IMG/VR virus record: IMGVR_UViG_3300031951_000863
Span: 1-29,971 of that record
DNA from: a virus
Reading direction: 5' to 3' (one strand)
Length of the DNA: 29,971 bases
The position numbers and the translations under genes are program-made. Numbering within the stretch: position 1 is the stretch's first letter; every line of letters begins with the position of its first letter. Of the stretch, positions 9,587 through 18,341 are shown piece after piece. The notes under the pieces were generated by a model, which was not told the DNA's origin, ran no database searches, and saw nothing but the letters and a program-made list of their open reading frames with translations.

Positions 9587-11905
9587 ATGGCTAAATATAG
9601 TTCACCGTTTTCAGTAGGCAAAAGGCAAACTGTATTTATTGATCCAAATGACCCACGAGTTCGTGGACTAAAAGCTGGAATAACAGAATCAAGACTTGGT
9701 GCTGAAATAAAAGTTGTAGATGCTGCTGGACTATCACAGTCTGGTTTTTCTTCATACTTAAAAAGTTCGGCACCTTCTTCAAATTTTATAAATACAAAAA
9801 CTGGATTAAGTCCTAAAAGCACAACTGATCCAGCTAGTTTTACAGATATATCAAATCTTTCTGCTGAATGGATTGGTGAAAGTTTTGTTATAACATTTAA
9901 TTATGATTTTTCTAATGAAAAAAATAAATATGTTTCAGAATTTAGATATAGATTAAGAACGTCTTCGTATACACCATTTACATTTGAGATATCAACAGTA
10001 TTAAATAAATCAACAGCCTTACAAACTATTACTTTTACAGAAAAAAACAACCAGGCTGTTTTTGGAGAATTTGCTGGAGAATTTTCTTTATTAGAAGTTT
10101 ATCCATATGATAGTTTTGGAAATATTGGAAATACTTCAACTTTAGACGTTACTGGAATAATATATAATTCAGATTTACCAGCTCCAGTTCTTCAGGCTAA
10201 TGCAATAACCTCTGGGTATCTTATTGATTGGACTGAAATTACAGAATCATATGCAAACATTCTTTTAGAAGAGGTTGTCTCAAGTGCAAACTCTGCCCCC
10301 GTATCTGGATATTTAAGTGTATATTTTGATCAAATAAAGCCCGCCAAGGTTATAACTGGAAATACAAATCAAAGATGGGTAAGAGGAAGATTTGCAAAAA
10401 GTAATGGAACTCTTGGACCATTATCAAATGCAATTAGTGTTACCCCATTAAGTCCTGTTTCTGTTGATAATACTGCTCCAAATGCACCAGCTAGTGGAAA
10501 TGTAACTGCTGGCATAGATTATGATCCAACATCGCTTGAAGTAGTTGGATTTAATGCATATATAGATATTTCTTGGACTGCAGTTAGTGACAGCACTTTA
10601 AAAGGATATAGGATTAGATTTAAAGATAATGCTAGTGCTGGCCCATATTCTTATGTAGATTCTCCAGGAACTGGAACAACATACAGGATTACTGGATTAT
10701 CAATTGGAACAACATACAGAATAGAAATTGCATCTTATGATGAATTTAATAATACATCATCTGCATATACAAATATAGGAACAGCGGTAGCAACTGGAAC
10801 TCCATTTATTGGAAAGAATGTTGAAACAACTGGATATTTTCAAGCTTTTCCTGGTGGTGGCAGTACTGCTAATGCATTTAGATTTGGATATGGGGTTGAA
10901 TCTGGTAAAAGAGGTCTTAGATTTAATGATAGCAACTATTGGTATATAGACTCTTCAGCAAGTGCAACATTTAAATTAGGTGGAGATACCAATAACTATA
11001 TTGAGTGGAATGGTGCACAATTTGTTATTCAGGGAGATCTTAGGGCACAAAAAGGACAGTTTGATGGCAATGTTCAAATAAAATCTGGAGGATCGTTATA
11101 TTCTGGAACACTGTCTGGCAATAATTTATCTGGTGCAGGCTTTATATTAAATAATACTGGAATTACATTTAATTCATCAACTGCTAATAACATAACAACT
11201 ATAAATGGAACAACGGGGTTGCTTACAACAACATCAGCAAAAATTGGTAATTGGGATGTAAATTCAGCATATGAAAATTCAATTTATTCTATATCTGGCA
11301 ATAATATAATAAAATTAGATTCTTCCGATGGATCAATAACTATTTCTGGAACTGGATATAGTTCTGGTATTGGAAGACCAGATGCCAATAATATTGTTTT
11401 TTGGTCTGGATCAGATAGAAGTACAAGTTCTCCATTTTATGTAACAAAAGAAGGACTTCTAAAGTCTGCAAATGCAGACATTACTGGTGTCATACGAGTT
11501 GGTGCTAGTGATATGAAATTTGGAGATAATGTTGGTGTAAATGGAAAAAGTGGTTTGCATATTGATTCTGTAAATTATTGGTATTCTGATGCAACATTTA
11601 AAGTTGGTAATGCAATAACAGCAACCAATACGTCTGTTACTATTGCTGGAAATACAACAATTAAGGGTGGAGAAATAACTCTTGAAGCAATAGGAACAGT
11701 TGAAAGTGACTCTAATAATTTTGCTGGAGATCCAACATTAACTTTAAACACTAGCAATAAAATAGTTAAGGGAAGAAGATTTATATTTAATGGGTCATCA
11801 TCTCCATCATCAAATGTTATTTTGAGTGGCGGAGAAGGAACCTGGGTAACTGGCGGTGGAACAACTACTTCAGTTAAAGTTGGCGATATTTTAATGGTGT
11901 CATAA
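9587..11905 (+). CDS. Tail fibre protein with fibronectin type III domain
   Basis: This 772-residue protein is probably an elongated, virion-attached fibre. The N-terminus (KRQTVFIDPNDPRVRGLKAG) is probably the tail-attachment part. Residues about 296-405 form a fibronectin III domain: YIDISWTAVSDSTLKGYRI, then YRITGLSIGTTYRIEIASYD. After this comes a Gly/Ser/Asn-rich region of short strands with fibre-like turns (VIQGDLRAQKGQFDGNVQI), ending in a compact tip near GGEGTWVTGGGTTT. A motif NYWYxD...ATFKxG occurs twice (near bases 10940 and 11575), suggesting internal duplication. No enzymatic motif was seen. It starts with a weak site (AGGTAAAA) 12 bases after the lectin-like gene and its stop overlaps the next ATG. 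Confidence 0.72.
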   Translation: MAKYSSPFSVGKRQTVFIDPNDPRVRGLKAGITESRLGAEIKVVDAAGLSQSGFSSYLKSSAPSSNFINTKTGLSPKSTTDPASFTDISNLSAEWIGESFVITFNYDFSNEKNKYVSEFRYRLRTSSYTPFTFEISTVLNKSTALQTITFTEKNNQAVFGEFAGEFSLLEVYPYDSFGNIGNTSTLDVTGIIYNSDLPAPVLQANAITSGYLIDWTEITESYANILLEEVVSSANSAPVSGYLSVYFDQIKPAKVITGNTNQRWVRGRFAKSNGTLGPLSNAISVTPLSPVSVDNTAPNAPASGNVTAGIDYDPTSLEVVGFNAYIDISWTAVSDSTLKGYRIRFKDNASAGPYSYVDSPGTGTTYRITGLSIGTTYRIEIASYDEFNNTSSAYTNIGTAVATGTPFIGKNVETTGYFQAFPGGGSTANAFRFGYGVESGKRGLRFNDSNYWYIDSSASATFKLGGDTNNYIEWNGAQFVIQGDLRAQKGQFDGNVQIKSGGSLYSGTLSGNNLSGAGFILNNTGITFNSSTANNITTINGTTGLLTTTSAKIGNWDVNSAYENSIYSISGNNIIKLDSSDGSITISGTGYSSGIGRPDANNIVFWSGSDRSTSSPFYVTKEGLLKSANADITGVIRVGASDMKFGDNVGVNGKSGLHIDSVNYWYSDATFKVGNAITATNTSVTIAGNTTIKGGEITLEAIGTVESDSNNFAGDPTLTLNTSNKIVKGRRFIFNGSSSPSSNVILSGGEGTWVTGGGTTTSVKVGDILMVS

Positions 11906-14904
11906 TGGCTAACAAAAGATGGCATAGATTGTCAAGTGGGGGAAGTTGGTCCCCACTTATAATATATAGATTAAACTCTAGTGGTGTTTGGAATCAACTT
12001 AATAAGATATATAGGTTGGCATCTGACGGAGTTTGGAAGCTTGTTCATTATGTTCAAAATCTTCCAACAGCAATAATATCTCCTACCTTAACTAATCAAT
12101 CTTCTATCTCTACAGAATTTTTTGGTGGTGACACGTTAACTTTAACAAGAGGACAATATACAAATACTACAAATAATTCAAATACTTCATACAGAATGAC
12201 TATATACAAAGGTAATGATCAAAATCTTTCTGTTAACGATACTAATTGGATCCCAGAAATAAGGCAAACTTTTACTGGTGATAACTCTACACAAAATACA
12301 ACAATAACATATAACTTAACAGATTCTGATGCAGAACTTGGATATTATCTTGTAGGAGAGGTAAAAGTAGATAATGATGTCGCTACTGCAGATTCTGAAA
12401 AAATAGATTTTTTAACTACGCCAAAAGTTTTATCAAAAATATCTTTTACTTTGGGAGATTTAAATATAACCAATATCACACATACTGGAGCAACATTTAC
12501 ATGGAGTACATCTGGAATTACAACAGCAAGAATTTTTTCTCAAACACTCACAATTAGACAGGGAAGTTCTACTGGAACAATAGTTAAAACGGTTTCAGTA
12601 ACACCAGGAACAACAACTACGGTAGTTTCAGACTCTGTTAATATTCTTCCAAGTACATCATATCATGCAACAATTGAGGTTGTGGCAAATGACGGATGGA
12701 AACTTACTGCTACCCCAAATAAGCAAACAAAAACAAATACATTTTCAACTACTGCTACTCCACCAACAATAACAAATATATCTAGATCTAATGGAACAAT
12801 TAAACCAACACCAAGCAATATCTCATTTTCTTCATCAAACAATACAGTTACAACTACGTGGACAAATGGTTCTCCATTAACATCTGTAACTTTTGATCCA
12901 GATGGTGCTGGTGCAGACGGAACTCCAGTAACAGACATCTCTTCTCCTTTTATAACATCAGACTCAAGATCATATTCATCAAGTGGCACATATTCTGTTG
13001 TTGTAAGTAATACAAATGATAATACACAAATAAATGTTTCTTGGGATCAAACAAATGCAGCCAGCTATGTTATTAACTATACTGGATCAACATCTGGTGC
13101 TGGATCTGTATCTGGAAATAATAGCGGTACAAGTGTTTCAGTAAACATACCCTGGGAAACAAGCCTTGTTGGTACTTTTAGATTAGATAGTATTGTTCTT
13201 TATACTGAAGCAAACCAATCTGGGGCATCAATAACTGGATCTGGAATATCTGGTTTTATTAGTGCAACTTCAGAAACTGGTACAGCATCTGCAAGCACAA
13301 GCCTCACATATGTTGAACCGATAGGTCCTTTTACATATACAGTATCCAATGCAACACTTGATCCAGCAAGACCAGACCCATATACTAACACATTTAATGC
13401 TGCTGGAACACAAATTAGTTCAGACTGGAATAATACAGCAAATACATCATATTGGAAATATTCAATAACAGGCGGTTCTCAAGGATCTAGAACAAGCAAT
13501 GTAACTGTTTCAAATGGATCTTTTTCTGTTACTCCAGGAAGCTCTTATACTACTACTGTAGTATCTGTAAATGAAGATAGAAGGGTAAGTGTTTCTTGGA
13601 ATGCTGCAAGTGGGGCAAACAGCTATGTTGTTTCATATACAAATGTTGGATCTCCTACTTCTGAAACTGTTACAGGAACATCTTTAAATATAGTTACCTT
13701 TGGAACAGTTGTTATTAATTCAGTTACTGCATATACTAACTCAAATGCAACTGGATTTTCTCGTTTAGGAACTTTATCTGGAAGTAATACAGTTACTCCA
13801 GTTGATAAAGAATCTGAATCAAGATCAGCAGGTCCAGATACGGCTCCTTCTGCTCCAGTCAATACTGTTGCTCCAGTCGCTTCTCCATCAAGTGGTGTTG
13901 TAGGAACAACATTTACTTGCTCCACTGGTACCTGGACTGGATCACCAACTTCATACTCCTATCAATGGCAAACATTTGAAAGTGGTTTTGGATGGTCAAA
14001 TATTTCTGGAGCAACCACAAATACATTTACCCCTGGATCTGGATATGCTGGAACAACTAACAAATGTATAGTTACTGCAACAAATGGTGCTGGTAGTAAC
14101 AGTGCAGAATCTAATACAATTCAGGTTACAATTCCTACACCTTTCTTCCCGCCTTTCTTCCCTCCTTTCTTCCCACCATTCTTCCCACCATTCTTTGCCC
14201 CAGTTTATACCCTTACTGTTAATTGTAATGGAGGAACTGGTTGCCCAGATTCTGGAACACATACTGGTTCATATACTATACCAAGTACTAATCCAACAAG
14301 AACAGATCATTCATTTAATGGATATGGCGTCACATGTTCTGGATCTTCTATTGGAACATACACTGCTGGACAAACAATCCTTTGTGAAGGTGCGTTAGTG
14401 CTAACAGCATCATGGACTTCTCTATTGGCTTCTCCAGTTAATACCGTTGCTCCAGTTGCCACTCCATCAAGCGCTGTCGCTGGATCAACATTTAGCTGTA
14501 CAACTGGTACATGGACTGGGTATCCGACACCTACGTACACTTATCAGTGGCAATCATTTGAAAGCGGATTTGGATGGTTTAATATTTCTGGTGCTACTAG
14601 CAGCTCATTTACTGCAGGATCTGGATATGCAGGAACTTCTCTTAAATGTATAGTTACTGCAACCAATAGTCAAGGAAGTGCATCTGCAGAGTCTAACAAT
14701 GTTCAGGTTACAGCTGCCCCACCGTTCTTCCCACCGTTCTTCCCTCCGTTCTTCCCTCCATTCTTCCCAGGGTTTGGACCGTTCTTCCCACCATTCTTCC
14801 CACCGTTCTTCCCACCGTTCTTCCCACCATTCTTCCCACCGTTCTTCCCACCATTCTTCCCACCGTTCTTCCCAGGGTTTGGACCATATTTTGGACCATG
14901 GTAA
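11905..14904 (+). CDS. Modular fibre protein with Ig-like domains and FFPP arrays
   Basis: This 999-residue protein is likely a surface adhesin at the tail tip. In order: three tandem YRLxSxGVW-type repeats (residues about 3-48); several FN3/Ig-like segments, two with VSWxxxxxAxSYVVxYT strands; an Ig-like domain (about 650-742); a first FFPP array; an InlB-repeat-like domain with four cysteines (about 767-839); a second, near-duplicate Ig-like domain (about 843-933); and a second FFPP array running to the C-terminus (YFGPW). Both Ig domains keep the paired cysteines and central tryptophan (TCSTGTW, YQWQ, KCIVTATN). Serine and threonine are abundant and lysine is scarce. No catalytic motif was recognised. 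The ATG overlaps the upstream stop. The fibre role is inferred from position and domains; the FFPP function is unknown. Confidence 0.75.
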   Translation: MANKRWHRLSSGGSWSPLIIYRLNSSGVWNQLNKIYRLASDGVWKLVHYVQNLPTAIISPTLTNQSSISTEFFGGDTLTLTRGQYTNTTNNSNTSYRMTIYKGNDQNLSVNDTNWIPEIRQTFTGDNSTQNTTITYNLTDSDAELGYYLVGEVKVDNDVATADSEKIDFLTTPKVLSKISFTLGDLNITNITHTGATFTWSTSGITTARIFSQTLTIRQGSSTGTIVKTVSVTPGTTTTVVSDSVNILPSTSYHATIEVVANDGWKLTATPNKQTKTNTFSTTATPPTITNISRSNGTIKPTPSNISFSSSNNTVTTTWTNGSPLTSVTFDPDGAGADGTPVTDISSPFITSDSRSYSSSGTYSVVVSNTNDNTQINVSWDQTNAASYVINYTGSTSGAGSVSGNNSGTSVSVNIPWETSLVGTFRLDSIVLYTEANQSGASITGSGISGFISATSETGTASASTSLTYVEPIGPFTYTVSNATLDPARPDPYTNTFNAAGTQISSDWNNTANTSYWKYSITGGSQGSRTSNVTVSNGSFSVTPGSSYTTTVVSVNEDRRVSVSWNAASGANSYVVSYTNVGSPTSETVTGTSLNIVTFGTVVINSVTAYTNSNATGFSRLGTLSGSNTVTPVDKESESRSAGPDTAPSAPVNTVAPVASPSSGVVGTTFTCSTGTWTGSPTSYSYQWQTFESGFGWSNISGATTNTFTPGSGYAGTTNKCIVTATNGAGSNSAESNTIQVTIPTPFFPPFFPPFFPPFFPPFFAPVYTLTVNCNGGTGCPDSGTHTGSYTIPSTNPTRTDHSFNGYGVTCSGSSIGTYTAGQTILCEGALVLTASWTSLLASPVNTVAPVATPSSAVAGSTFSCTTGTWTGYPTPTYTYQWQSFESGFGWFNISGATSSSFTAGSGYAGTSLKCIVTATNSQGSASAESNNVQVTAAPPFFPPFFPPFFPPFFPGFGPFFPPFFPPFFPPFFPPFFPPFFPPFFPPFFPGFGPYFGPW
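11934..11958 (+). repeat. Inverted repeat (8-bp stem) just inside a start codon region
   Basis: AAGTGGGG (11934-11941) and CCCCACTT (11951-11958) are perfectly complementary around a 9-base loop, 29-53 bases after the ATG of the FFPP fibre gene. Such a GC-rich stem is unusual in this AT-rich sequence. It lacks a following T-run, so it is not a standard terminator. It also encodes the first of three GxW repeats and may simply reflect coding. Confidence 0.4.
13852..14130 (+). repeat. Ig-like domain repeat, copy 1
   Basis: Encodes residues about 650-742 of the fibre protein, beginning APVNTVAPVASPSSG and ending SAESNTIQVT. It is nearly the same as copy 2 at 14431-14712 (FESGFGW, NISGAT, GSGYAGT and KCIVTATN are shared). 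Each copy is followed directly by an FFPP array, so the duplicated unit is Ig plus FFPP. Confidence 0.75.
14140..14201 (+). repeat. FFPP 12-base repeat array 1
   Basis: Five Phe-Phe pairs separated by Pro-Pro, encoded by a 12-base unit of the form TTCTTCCCxCCx, then Ala-Pro. Nine of ten phenylalanines use TTC although TTT dominates the rest of the gene. It links the first Ig-like domain to the InlB-like domain. Confidence 0.85.
14431..14712 (+). repeat. Ig-like domain repeat, copy 2
   Basis: Encodes residues about 843-933, from SPVNTVAPVATPSS to SAESNNVQVT. It is the second copy of the Ig-like domain at 13852-14130, with conserved cysteine pair and tryptophan, and leads straight into FFPP array 2. 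Confidence 0.75.
14719..14901 (+). repeat. FFPP 12-base repeat array 2
   Basis: Twelve Phe-Phe pairs in two runs (four, then eight), each run closed by PGFGP, ending PYFGPW at the stop. The unit is TTCTTCCCACCG/A. All 24 paired phenylalanines use TTC, while those in the GFG and YFG closers use TTT. Proline codons alternate between CCA and CCG. The array forms the C-terminal 61 residues of the fibre protein. Confidence 0.9.
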
Positions 14905-16572: not shown

Positions 16573-17785
16573 TTCAGAGGCAAAGGTAATATCAGCAGTA
16601 CTAAATGATAAGCAGATGCATGTTTTGCTTCAGGCCAATCTAGATAACTTACTTAGAACCCATAATGATGTATGGAACTTTATTAGGCATTATTTTGATA
16701 TTAATGGATCTGTTCCGCCATCATCATTAGTAGTTGAAAAGTTTAGAGATTTTCAAATTATTCCAGATATTGGAGCAACCAAACACCATCTAGATGAGCT
16801 ACAGGTTGAGTATTTAAATGATAGCTTAAAAGATATCTTAAGAAATGCTGCTACAGATGTTCAGGGTGGCAATGCAACGCAAGCACTTGATCAGCTTATT
16901 ACTAAGACCTCAGAACTCAAAAAAAATACATCAGCAATAAGAGATGTTGATGTAACTGATATTGATTCTGCCGTTGCCTATTATGAAAATGTTCAAAAGA
17001 TGAAAGAGTCTGGGCAAGTAGGAATCAAGACTGGCTTGCCAGGGTTTGACAATTATCTCCCATCTGGAATTATGCCAGGTCAGCTTGGGGTATTCTTGGC
17101 ATATCCAGGGATTGGAAAATCCTGGCTTGCTCTTTACTTTGCAGTGCAAGCTTGGAAGCAAGGTAAGTCTCCACTAATCATTTCTCTTGAAATGTCAGAA
17201 ACTGAAGTGCGTAATCGTGTATTTGCAATTATGGGCGAAGGCTTGTGGTCACATCGTAAATTAAGTAATGGCGAAGTAGAAATTGATATGTTAAAAAAAT
17301 GGCATACTAGCAAGCTTGAGGGCAAGCCAGCATTTCATATCATCTCAAATGATTCTGGTGGAGAAGTTACGCCATCTGTAATTCGTGGAAAGATTGATCA
17401 GTATAAGCCAGACTTTGTTGTTGTTGATTATCTTCAACTTATGTCTCCTAATCAAAAGTCTGATAATGAGACGGTACGCATGAAGAATCTTTCTCGTGAA
17501 CTTAAACTTATGGCTATTAGCGAAGAGGTACCAATTATTTCAATTTCTTCTGCTACGCCAGATGATGTGAAGGATCTTAGTAGCGCTCCAACACTTGGTC
17601 AAACTGCTTGGTCACGACAAATTGCATATGATGCTGACTGGGTAATGGCACTTGGTCGTGCTACAAATAGTGATATTATTGAGTGTGTATTTAGAAAAAA
17701 TAGAAATGGTTTTATGGGAGACTTTTTAGTTCAAGTAGATTTTGATAGAGGATATTATAGATACAAGGATTTTGAAGAAAAATAA
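16565..17785 (+). CDS. dnaB: Replicative DNA helicase, DnaB-like
   Basis: This 406-residue protein is the probable hexameric fork helicase, moving 5'-3' on single-stranded DNA. The N-terminal region (about 1-135) resembles the helical DnaB N domain. The RecA-type core follows. Its P-loop is A179-YPGI-GKS, with K185 and S186 but alanine in place of the usual first glycine. Walker B is VVVDYLQL with D288. The segment SLEMSETEVRNRVFAIM after the P-loop is typical of DnaB. The GTG start has AGGAAG seven bases upstream. Arginine codons include many CGT, unlike the AGA-dominated tail genes. It is followed by an oxygenase and primase. Confidence 0.9.
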   Translation: MNNSEAKVISAVLNDKQMHVLLQANLDNLLRTHNDVWNFIRHYFDINGSVPPSSLVVEKFRDFQIIPDIGATKHHLDELQVEYLNDSLKDILRNAATDVQGGNATQALDQLITKTSELKKNTSAIRDVDVTDIDSAVAYYENVQKMKESGQVGIKTGLPGFDNYLPSGIMPGQLGVFLAYPGIGKSWLALYFAVQAWKQGKSPLIISLEMSETEVRNRVFAIMGEGLWSHRKLSNGEVEIDMLKKWHTSKLEGKPAFHIISNDSGGEVTPSVIRGKIDQYKPDFVVVDYLQLMSPNQKSDNETVRMKNLSRELKLMAISEEVPIISISSATPDDVKDLSSAPTLGQTAWSRQIAYDADWVMALGRATNSDIIECVFRKNRNGFMGDFLVQVDFDRGYYRYKDFEEK

Positions 17786-17786
17786 T

Positions 17787-18341
17787 ATGTCCATAACTCC
17801 AAGAATTGACAACGGCATAGTTACTGTTTATTCTAATAATATAGATATAGATTACTGGATTAATATTTTAGAAAAGGTAAGTAGCGATTCTTATCCATTT
17901 GAAAATGTAGATCGTAGACCACATCAAACAATGGAAATACCAGCGCTGTATGATAGGCGTGATAGCTACGCATCAATTGAGGTTCGTGCAATGTTTTATA
18001 ATATATTGCACATATCTCTTATTGATTTTATGAAAAAAAATAACATGAGTAAAATGGAACCACTAAGAAGCACAATAACAGCATCCAAGCTTCTACCAAA
18101 TACTCCAATGAATGCACATCAAGATATTACAGATTCAAGAGTAGATAGTTTTATTGCTCAACTATATATTAACGATGATTACGATGGTGGAGAATTATTT
18201 TTTCCAGATCATTCGTATGCTTATAAGCCTAAAGCTGGAGATATGGCATATTACAAAATGAACGATATGCACGGAGTTCTTGAAACAAAATCTGGATTAA
18301 GGTATACTATAGGATACAGTCTATTGGGGCCATACTATTAA
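17787..18341 (+). CDS. 2-oxoglutarate/Fe(II)-dependent dioxygenase, P4H-like
   Basis: This 184-residue enzyme probably hydroxylates a protein or nucleobase with 2-oxoglutarate, O2 and Fe(II). The double-stranded beta-helix core shows all expected ligands: H111-x-D113 (AHQD), distal H162 (MHGV) for iron, and R172 ten residues later (GLRYT) for the 2-oxoglutarate carboxylate. DDYDGGELFF is the strand pattern of prolyl-4-hydroxylase relatives. The substrate cannot be told. The ATG follows the helicase stop by one base (TAATATG) with no ribosome site, so it is translated by coupling. The in-frame ATG at 17742 lies inside the helicase gene and is less likely. It is located between helicase and primase. 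Confidence 0.85.
   Translation: MSITPRIDNGIVTVYSNNIDIDYWINILEKVSSDSYPFENVDRRPHQTMEIPALYDRRDSYASIEVRAMFYNILHISLIDFMKKNNMSKMEPLRSTITASKLLPNTPMNAHQDITDSRVDSFIAQLYINDDYDGGELFFPDHSYAYKPKAGDMAYYKMNDMHGVLETKSGLRYTIGYSLLGPYY

Follow-up and report, generated by a model that had tools for sequence, protein, structure and literature searches.

Phe-Phe-Pro-Pro arrays on phage tail-fibre-type proteins and a candidate link to virus-encoded prolyl-hydroxylase-type oxygenases

Plant extensins and hydroxyproline-rich glycoproteins are extended surface rods with repeated aromatic and proline-rich motifs, which are hydroxylated by prolyl-4-hydroxylases (P4H) and often glycosylated. Among viruses, the prolyl-4-hydroxylase gene (P4HA) is one of the most widespread 'auxiliary metabolic' genes of the Baltic water column, being present at 62% of stations, and its viral use 'remains cryptic' (PMC9301287). 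Such viral oxygenases have been assigned to DNA repair (PMC2984593) and to secondary metabolism (PMC12542629). The P4H encoded by virus PBCV-1 uses viral proline-rich peptides as substrates, according to Eriksson (1999) as cited in PMC9301287, and an unpublished analysis, as it is cited in PMC7019647, found no hydroxyproline in PBCV-1 particles despite the presence of the enzyme.

The stretch of DNA analyzed here (the window) comprises 29,971 bases and is a virus record of IMG/VR. Its terminase and DnaE are 53% and 55% identical, over their full length, to those of the closest relatives, Streptomyces phages of the Stanwilliamsviridae, with which it has in common the gene order tape measure, minor tail genes, DnaB, primase, DnaE, RecA and terminase. 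Taking homology plus gene order as the criterion, the homologous replication and packaging genes, found in the same order, would place the window phage in the Stanwilliamsviridae. In addition, its tail module is collinear with those of Streptomyces phages Muntaha and EGole. The nearest isolates have Streptomyces as host, and the host of the window phage is, by inference, an actinobacterium. Protein P0001 (999 aa; 11905..14904, + strand), assigned as a minor tail or fibre-type protein from its ORF, translation, gene order and orthologues, is encoded by the final gene of the tail module, after the tape measure and minor tail genes; upstream of it, an fn3-containing minor tail protein is encoded (9587..11905, + strand; phrog_11445; 31% identity to a Muntaha minor tail protein). 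This position is conserved, as orthologues occupy it in L143, L144, L145, L361 and L362, and they also display the short repeats (IYRLNSSGVW...) of the P0001 N-terminus.

The remainder of P0001 is organized as two Ig-like domains, each followed by an array. Ig-like domain 1 (aa 650-744; 13852..14136, + strand) was recognized from AF2 modelling (pLDDT >85 over most of it), Foldseek matches to tandem Ig proteins and the match of phrog_26223 to domains of this type, and it precedes array 1 (aa 746-764; 14140..14196, + strand), with the sequence PFFPPFFPPFFPPFFPPFF and 5 FF pairs. A Cys-containing domain (VYTLTVNCNGGTGCP...TASW; 14200..14430, + strand), defined by sequence and conserved in L362, lies between the arrays; it gave no match in a Pfam search and, by eye only, resembles Listeria-Bacteroides-type repeats. 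Then come Ig-like domain 2 (aa 843-937; 14431..14715, + strand; phrog_26223, E=1e-14; pLDDT >90 over most of it) and array 2 (aa 939-999; 14719..14901, + strand), which has 12 FF pairs and two PGFGP interruptions, and which forms the C-terminus of the protein, ending in ...FFPGFGPYFGPW. The models of both Ig-like domains have an Ig fold and RB49 Hoc is one of their Foldseek matches, while AF2 modelling of the array region yielded no secondary structure, low confidence and no usable structure. Both arrays were located by translation and by TRF, which reports them as 12-bp tandem repeats. Phenylalanine is encoded within them by TTC 33 times and by TTT 4 times, and in the rest of the gene by TTT in 28 of 28 cases, a bias that may stem from avoidance of T-runs or else indicate that the module was transferred.

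A previous sequence-only reading of this DNA had counted seventeen FF pairs in two Pro-Pro-spaced arrays, the second C-terminal, each after a near-identical Ig-like domain, and had deduced a recent duplication; it had also suggested that the segment might insert in or stick to host membrane or cell wall, or serve as a stiff spacer, roles that stay hypothetical. The count and the layout agree with ours (5 + 12 pairs, an Ig-like domain before each array). However, near identity was rejected, as the two domains are 73% identical at the protein level (70/96 columns) and 75% at the DNA level (216/288). The duplication itself is not as recent as claimed, since L362 also has the Ig-array-X-Ig-array layout, and it therefore predates the split between the window and L362; repeat expansion, on the other hand, is supported. 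Copy number also proved to vary among related phages. The same reading had argued that a surface role would become unlikely if relatives lacked the array or carried it internally, and both cases occur, which tempers the proposal: the orthologues in L143, L144 and L361 have no array, and that in L145 has a short internal one. As the array is absent or internal in close relatives, it appears to be an optional module. Moreover, its unit changes fast, the L362 orthologue having PFFPPSF instead of FFPP.

We then focused our attention on the distribution of the repeat. A degenerate DNA pattern for FFPPFFPPFFP, scanned over IMG/VR, matched at least 120 viral stretches. Among the matches listed, the FFPP frame was the longest ORF in 106/120, as compared to 12/120 for a control (FP)n pattern, and a chance DNA repeat was rejected on this basis. 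In 84,980 cellular genomes the pattern matched 12 times, with about four contigs encoding genuine FFPP proteins, all of them in metagenome bins. A cellular origin was likewise rejected, given that most of the 12 were in the wrong frame or lacked an array ORF, and that the genuine cases sit in short or low-coverage bins. The restriction to phages that a repeat search had been expected to test was supported. Contigs L123, L126, L131 and L132, from bins labelled Verrucomicrobiales, Gammaproteobacteria and Chitinophagaceae, carry FFPP genes together with oxygenases, and have the appearance of phage DNA binned with bacteria. When P0001 and three further FFPP proteins were compared by tblastn with 50,697 isolate phages, no match was obtained, low-complexity masking limiting the sensitivity of this search.

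FFPP carrier proteins contain fn3 (62/100), Ig-like or PASTA domains, some having a Hint or S74-chaperone domain after the array, and in PHROG they match tail, fibre and virion proteins; together with the place of P0001 at the end of the tail module, this is in agreement with the earlier assignment to a phage fibre. Genes upstream of FFPP genes encode tail fibres, and five upstream neighbours contain collagen repeats. Over 855 array units, position 1 is occupied by F (625), Y (179), H (18) or W (9), and position 2 by F in 829, followed by a Pro-Pro that retains synonymous variation. As L, S, I, V and C are nearly absent at the aromatic positions, even though they are equally close by mutation, the aromatics are maintained by selection at the protein level. 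The analogy of the pattern to polyproline, drawn from the sequence alone, was also supported. Most arrays lie at or near the protein terminus and are followed by nothing of substance, and internal ones exist (array 1 of P0001, L145, L008 and L010).

Some features of the array ends were recorded in addition. In L007, L029, L030, L040, L054, L067, L075, L089, L109, L316 and L342, the array is directly followed by a Hint (intein/hedgehog-type) domain with a Cys at the would-be self-cleavage start; in several of these domains, other catalytic residues seem to be missing. An S74 intramolecular-chaperone domain or its remnants ('PPAFK|SDVRDK') follow the array in L043 (1085-1762), L077, L115, L058 and L090, and many arrays terminate in xFK-stop, resembling the processed end of S74-chaperone proteins.

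Array genes co-occur strongly with genes of one oxygenase family. PF13640 (2OG-FeII_Oxy_3) matches 40 of the 104 ORFs directly downstream of FFPP genes, and a local profile detected an oxygenase in 60/68 FFPP loci that have 3 kb or more of downstream DNA (58 of them within 3 kb), counts to be read knowing that most records are fragments and that phage relatedness inflates the association. Oxygenase ORFs around FFPP genes lie downstream rather than upstream (307 vs 5) and on the same rather than the opposite strand (294 vs 18); the first is at most 130 bp from the FFPP gene in 36 loci, and up to 11 occur in tandem. FFPP records of at least 40 kb have oxygenases in 30 of 31 cases, often 5-12 each, the figure for (FP)n control records being 1/25 (weak). 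Nine FFPP records of 7-38 kb have no oxygenase at all, and the 56-kb record G100 also has an array without one. The 112-kb L145 record contains a dedicated FFPP gene between a tail fibre gene and a series of oxygenases.

Sampling by other markers led to a similar picture. When loci were sampled by one oxygenase, an array was present in 38/38 loci that have 3.3 kb or more of upstream DNA, as against 1/120 and 1/80 in control loci. When loci were sampled by a tail-fibre domain, 10 sequence clusters had array and oxygenase, 9 had neither, 2 had the oxygenase only and none had the array only (Fisher p=2e-4); subsequent reading of whole records resolved several mismatches in favour of the link, with an array detected in L286 as well as in L287, and both features in two of the 'neither' records. 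An oxygenase without a known array occurs in the L360, L402 and L341 records and in cyanophages S-H9-1 and S-CRM01. FFPP-negative oxygenase loci often have other Pro-rich arrays at the same gene position, namely (GFFxPP)n, (SFPP)n or polyproline, and simple count thresholds for a 'Pro array' miss the GFFxPP type. In L453-L530, many contigs start near the array, at 1.5-2.9 kb upstream of the oxygenase; assembly seems to break at the repeats, and arrays are probably undercounted as a result. A DUF6065 protein (L004:4318-5031 and homologues) occurs with the oxygenase run at 26 of the 30 loci inspected, and may be a partner. In L314 (7900-9900), two consecutive ORFs after a tail gene appear, by eye, fatty-acid-desaturase-like.

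In the window, the corresponding gene encodes a 2OG-Fe(II) oxygenase of the prolyl-hydroxylase type (17742..18341, + strand), identified from its triad, AF2 fold and profile; it lies between the DnaB helicase and primase genes, in the replication module and apart from the array. Its true start is likely ATG 17787, a conserved Met just past the helicase stop. The HxD...H iron triad (H126, D128, H177) is invariant across 15 aligned sequences, and a profile from this alignment has P4H as best PDB match (E=2e-12). The protein alone has no Pfam match below 0.01 and a weak single-sequence match (E=0.08), while array-adjacent homologues match PF13640 above the cut-off. Its AF2 model (pTM 0.79) retrieved prolyl hydroxylases at all of Foldseek PDB ranks 1-24, including B. 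anthracis P4H, PBCV-1 vCPH, human P3H1, C-P4H-II and PHD2, and not AlkB. A fold of this type does not, however, fix the substrate.

Within the window clade, which has more than 599 relatives in IMG/VR, 45 loci sampled by helicase had at least 5 kb upstream. Arrays were found only in the window and L362, and an oxygenase between helicase and primase only in the window, L362 and L360 (p=0.003), an association resting on few lineages; both features are absent in 42/45. Over 81 relatives, window included, three have the oxygenase at this place. L361, with a helicase 96% identical, has neither array nor oxygenase. The 76-kb L360 record has the oxygenase and no array in its last tail gene, and may have lost its array recently.

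A constant partner of the prolyl-hydroxylase type points to a proline array that is post-translationally modified. The reading that we favour, and hold to be reasonably probable, is that the array stands at the tip of a tail-fibre-type protein with its prolines hydroxylated by phage 2OG-Fe(II) oxygenases. The FFPP array would be a solvent-exposed, extended aromatic-proline module ending the protein, and its prolines would be substrates of oxygenases encoded nearby or elsewhere in the genome, the candidate enzyme in the window being the 17742-18341 product. Hydroxylation could provide stiffer Pro-Pro steps and place hydroxyls, possibly bearing sugars, beside a ladder of aromatic rings, so that a sticky hydrophobic polymer might become a soluble amphipathic rod, or an adhesin touching the host surface in attachment. 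Counting against this reading are the oxygenases that occur without a known array, the FFPP records that have no oxygenase, the place of the window enzyme in the replication module with its weak single-sequence match, and the negative result for hydroxyproline cited for PBCV-1 particles. Alternatively, the array may work unmodified, as a hydrophobic adhesive for host envelope, polysaccharide or particles, and the oxygenases may share a lateral-transfer module for another reason. This would be compatible with the strict aromatic selection at unit positions 1 and 2, and with the Ig, fn3 and PASTA domains of the carriers, which are of a kind usual in weak surface binding, but it leaves unexplained both the array-oxygenase co-occurrence across fibre types and phage lineages and the other proline arrays at oxygenase-positive, FFPP-negative loci; we regard it as unlikely.

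Most arrays being terminal or near-terminal, and their invariant aromatics being unneeded by a simple spacer, it is rather improbable that the array serves as a stiff spacer or as an oligomerisation rod keeping the fibre end off the tail with no direct binding, even if a Pro-rich array fits hydroxylation for stiffness, and even if arrays may be internal, as in P0001 array 1, L145, L008 and L010, or precede Hint and S74-chaperone domains. The oxygenases could also act elsewhere, on DNA or nucleotides as proposed for Syn9, on pigments or secondary metabolites, or on glycans, in which case shared lineage would account for the link to the array. The position of the window enzyme between helicase and primase suits such a role, as do the cyanophage homologues adjoining UvsX, interpreted as DNA repair (PMC2984593), and the secondary metabolism proposed in PMC12542629. 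Nevertheless, this seems very unlikely: oxygenase and arrays appear together within one clade of which 42/45 members have neither, the fold is that of prolyl hydroxylases rather than AlkB, and oxygenase-sampled loci with enough upstream DNA always have an array (38/38).

Next to arrays, single matches to a GlcNAc-transferase (PF11397, which we take to be the Skp1 hydroxyproline GlcNAc-transferase family) and a sulfotransferase were noted, together with a sulfotransferase-like ORF recognized by eye (L033:3164-3928), and their products could cap hydroxyproline. A more speculative and doubtful extension of the favoured hydroxylation reading is that freshwater and marine phages carry an extensin-like, hydroxyproline-rich fibre tip, an aromatic-proline polymer decorated by varied prolyl hydroxylases and serving as a tunable receptor-binding surface, with the GlcNAc-transferase or sulfotransferase-like genes of some loci possibly capping its hydroxyprolines.

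If hydroxylation of the arrays is true, these phages chemically modify their own attachment fibres, and many such genes would shift from 'metabolism' to 'virion modification'. An encoded, constant proline-rich partner makes the enzyme-substrate question directly testable for a common viral enzyme family, and the arrays would constitute a novel type of low-complexity fibre module that follows a clear sequence rule and by which such phages could easily be recognized. A text search of the papers covered found no mention of the PFFPPFF string; viral P4H with proline-rich substrates is known, and, to the extent that this could be tested, the pairing of an array with an oxygenase battery has not been described. 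Collagen-like (GXY) and polyglycine modules are comparable as low-complexity repeats in phage fibres, but FFPP is strongly aromatic and lacks Gly at every third residue. Hoc and the Ig-like decoration or tail domains of T4-like phages also place tandem Ig-like domains on virion proteins, whereas those of P0001 carry FFPP arrays in a tail-module protein. Plant extensins have different units and no homology to the phage arrays, whose hydroxylation is inferred. A close likeness on the enzyme side is PBCV-1 vCPH (PDB 5C5T), also a P4H-type enzyme encoded by a virus, and one of the best structural matches to the window enzyme; PBCV-1, however, is an algal virus with one enzyme and other repeats, while here phages combine FFPP tail arrays with up to a dozen tandem paralogues.
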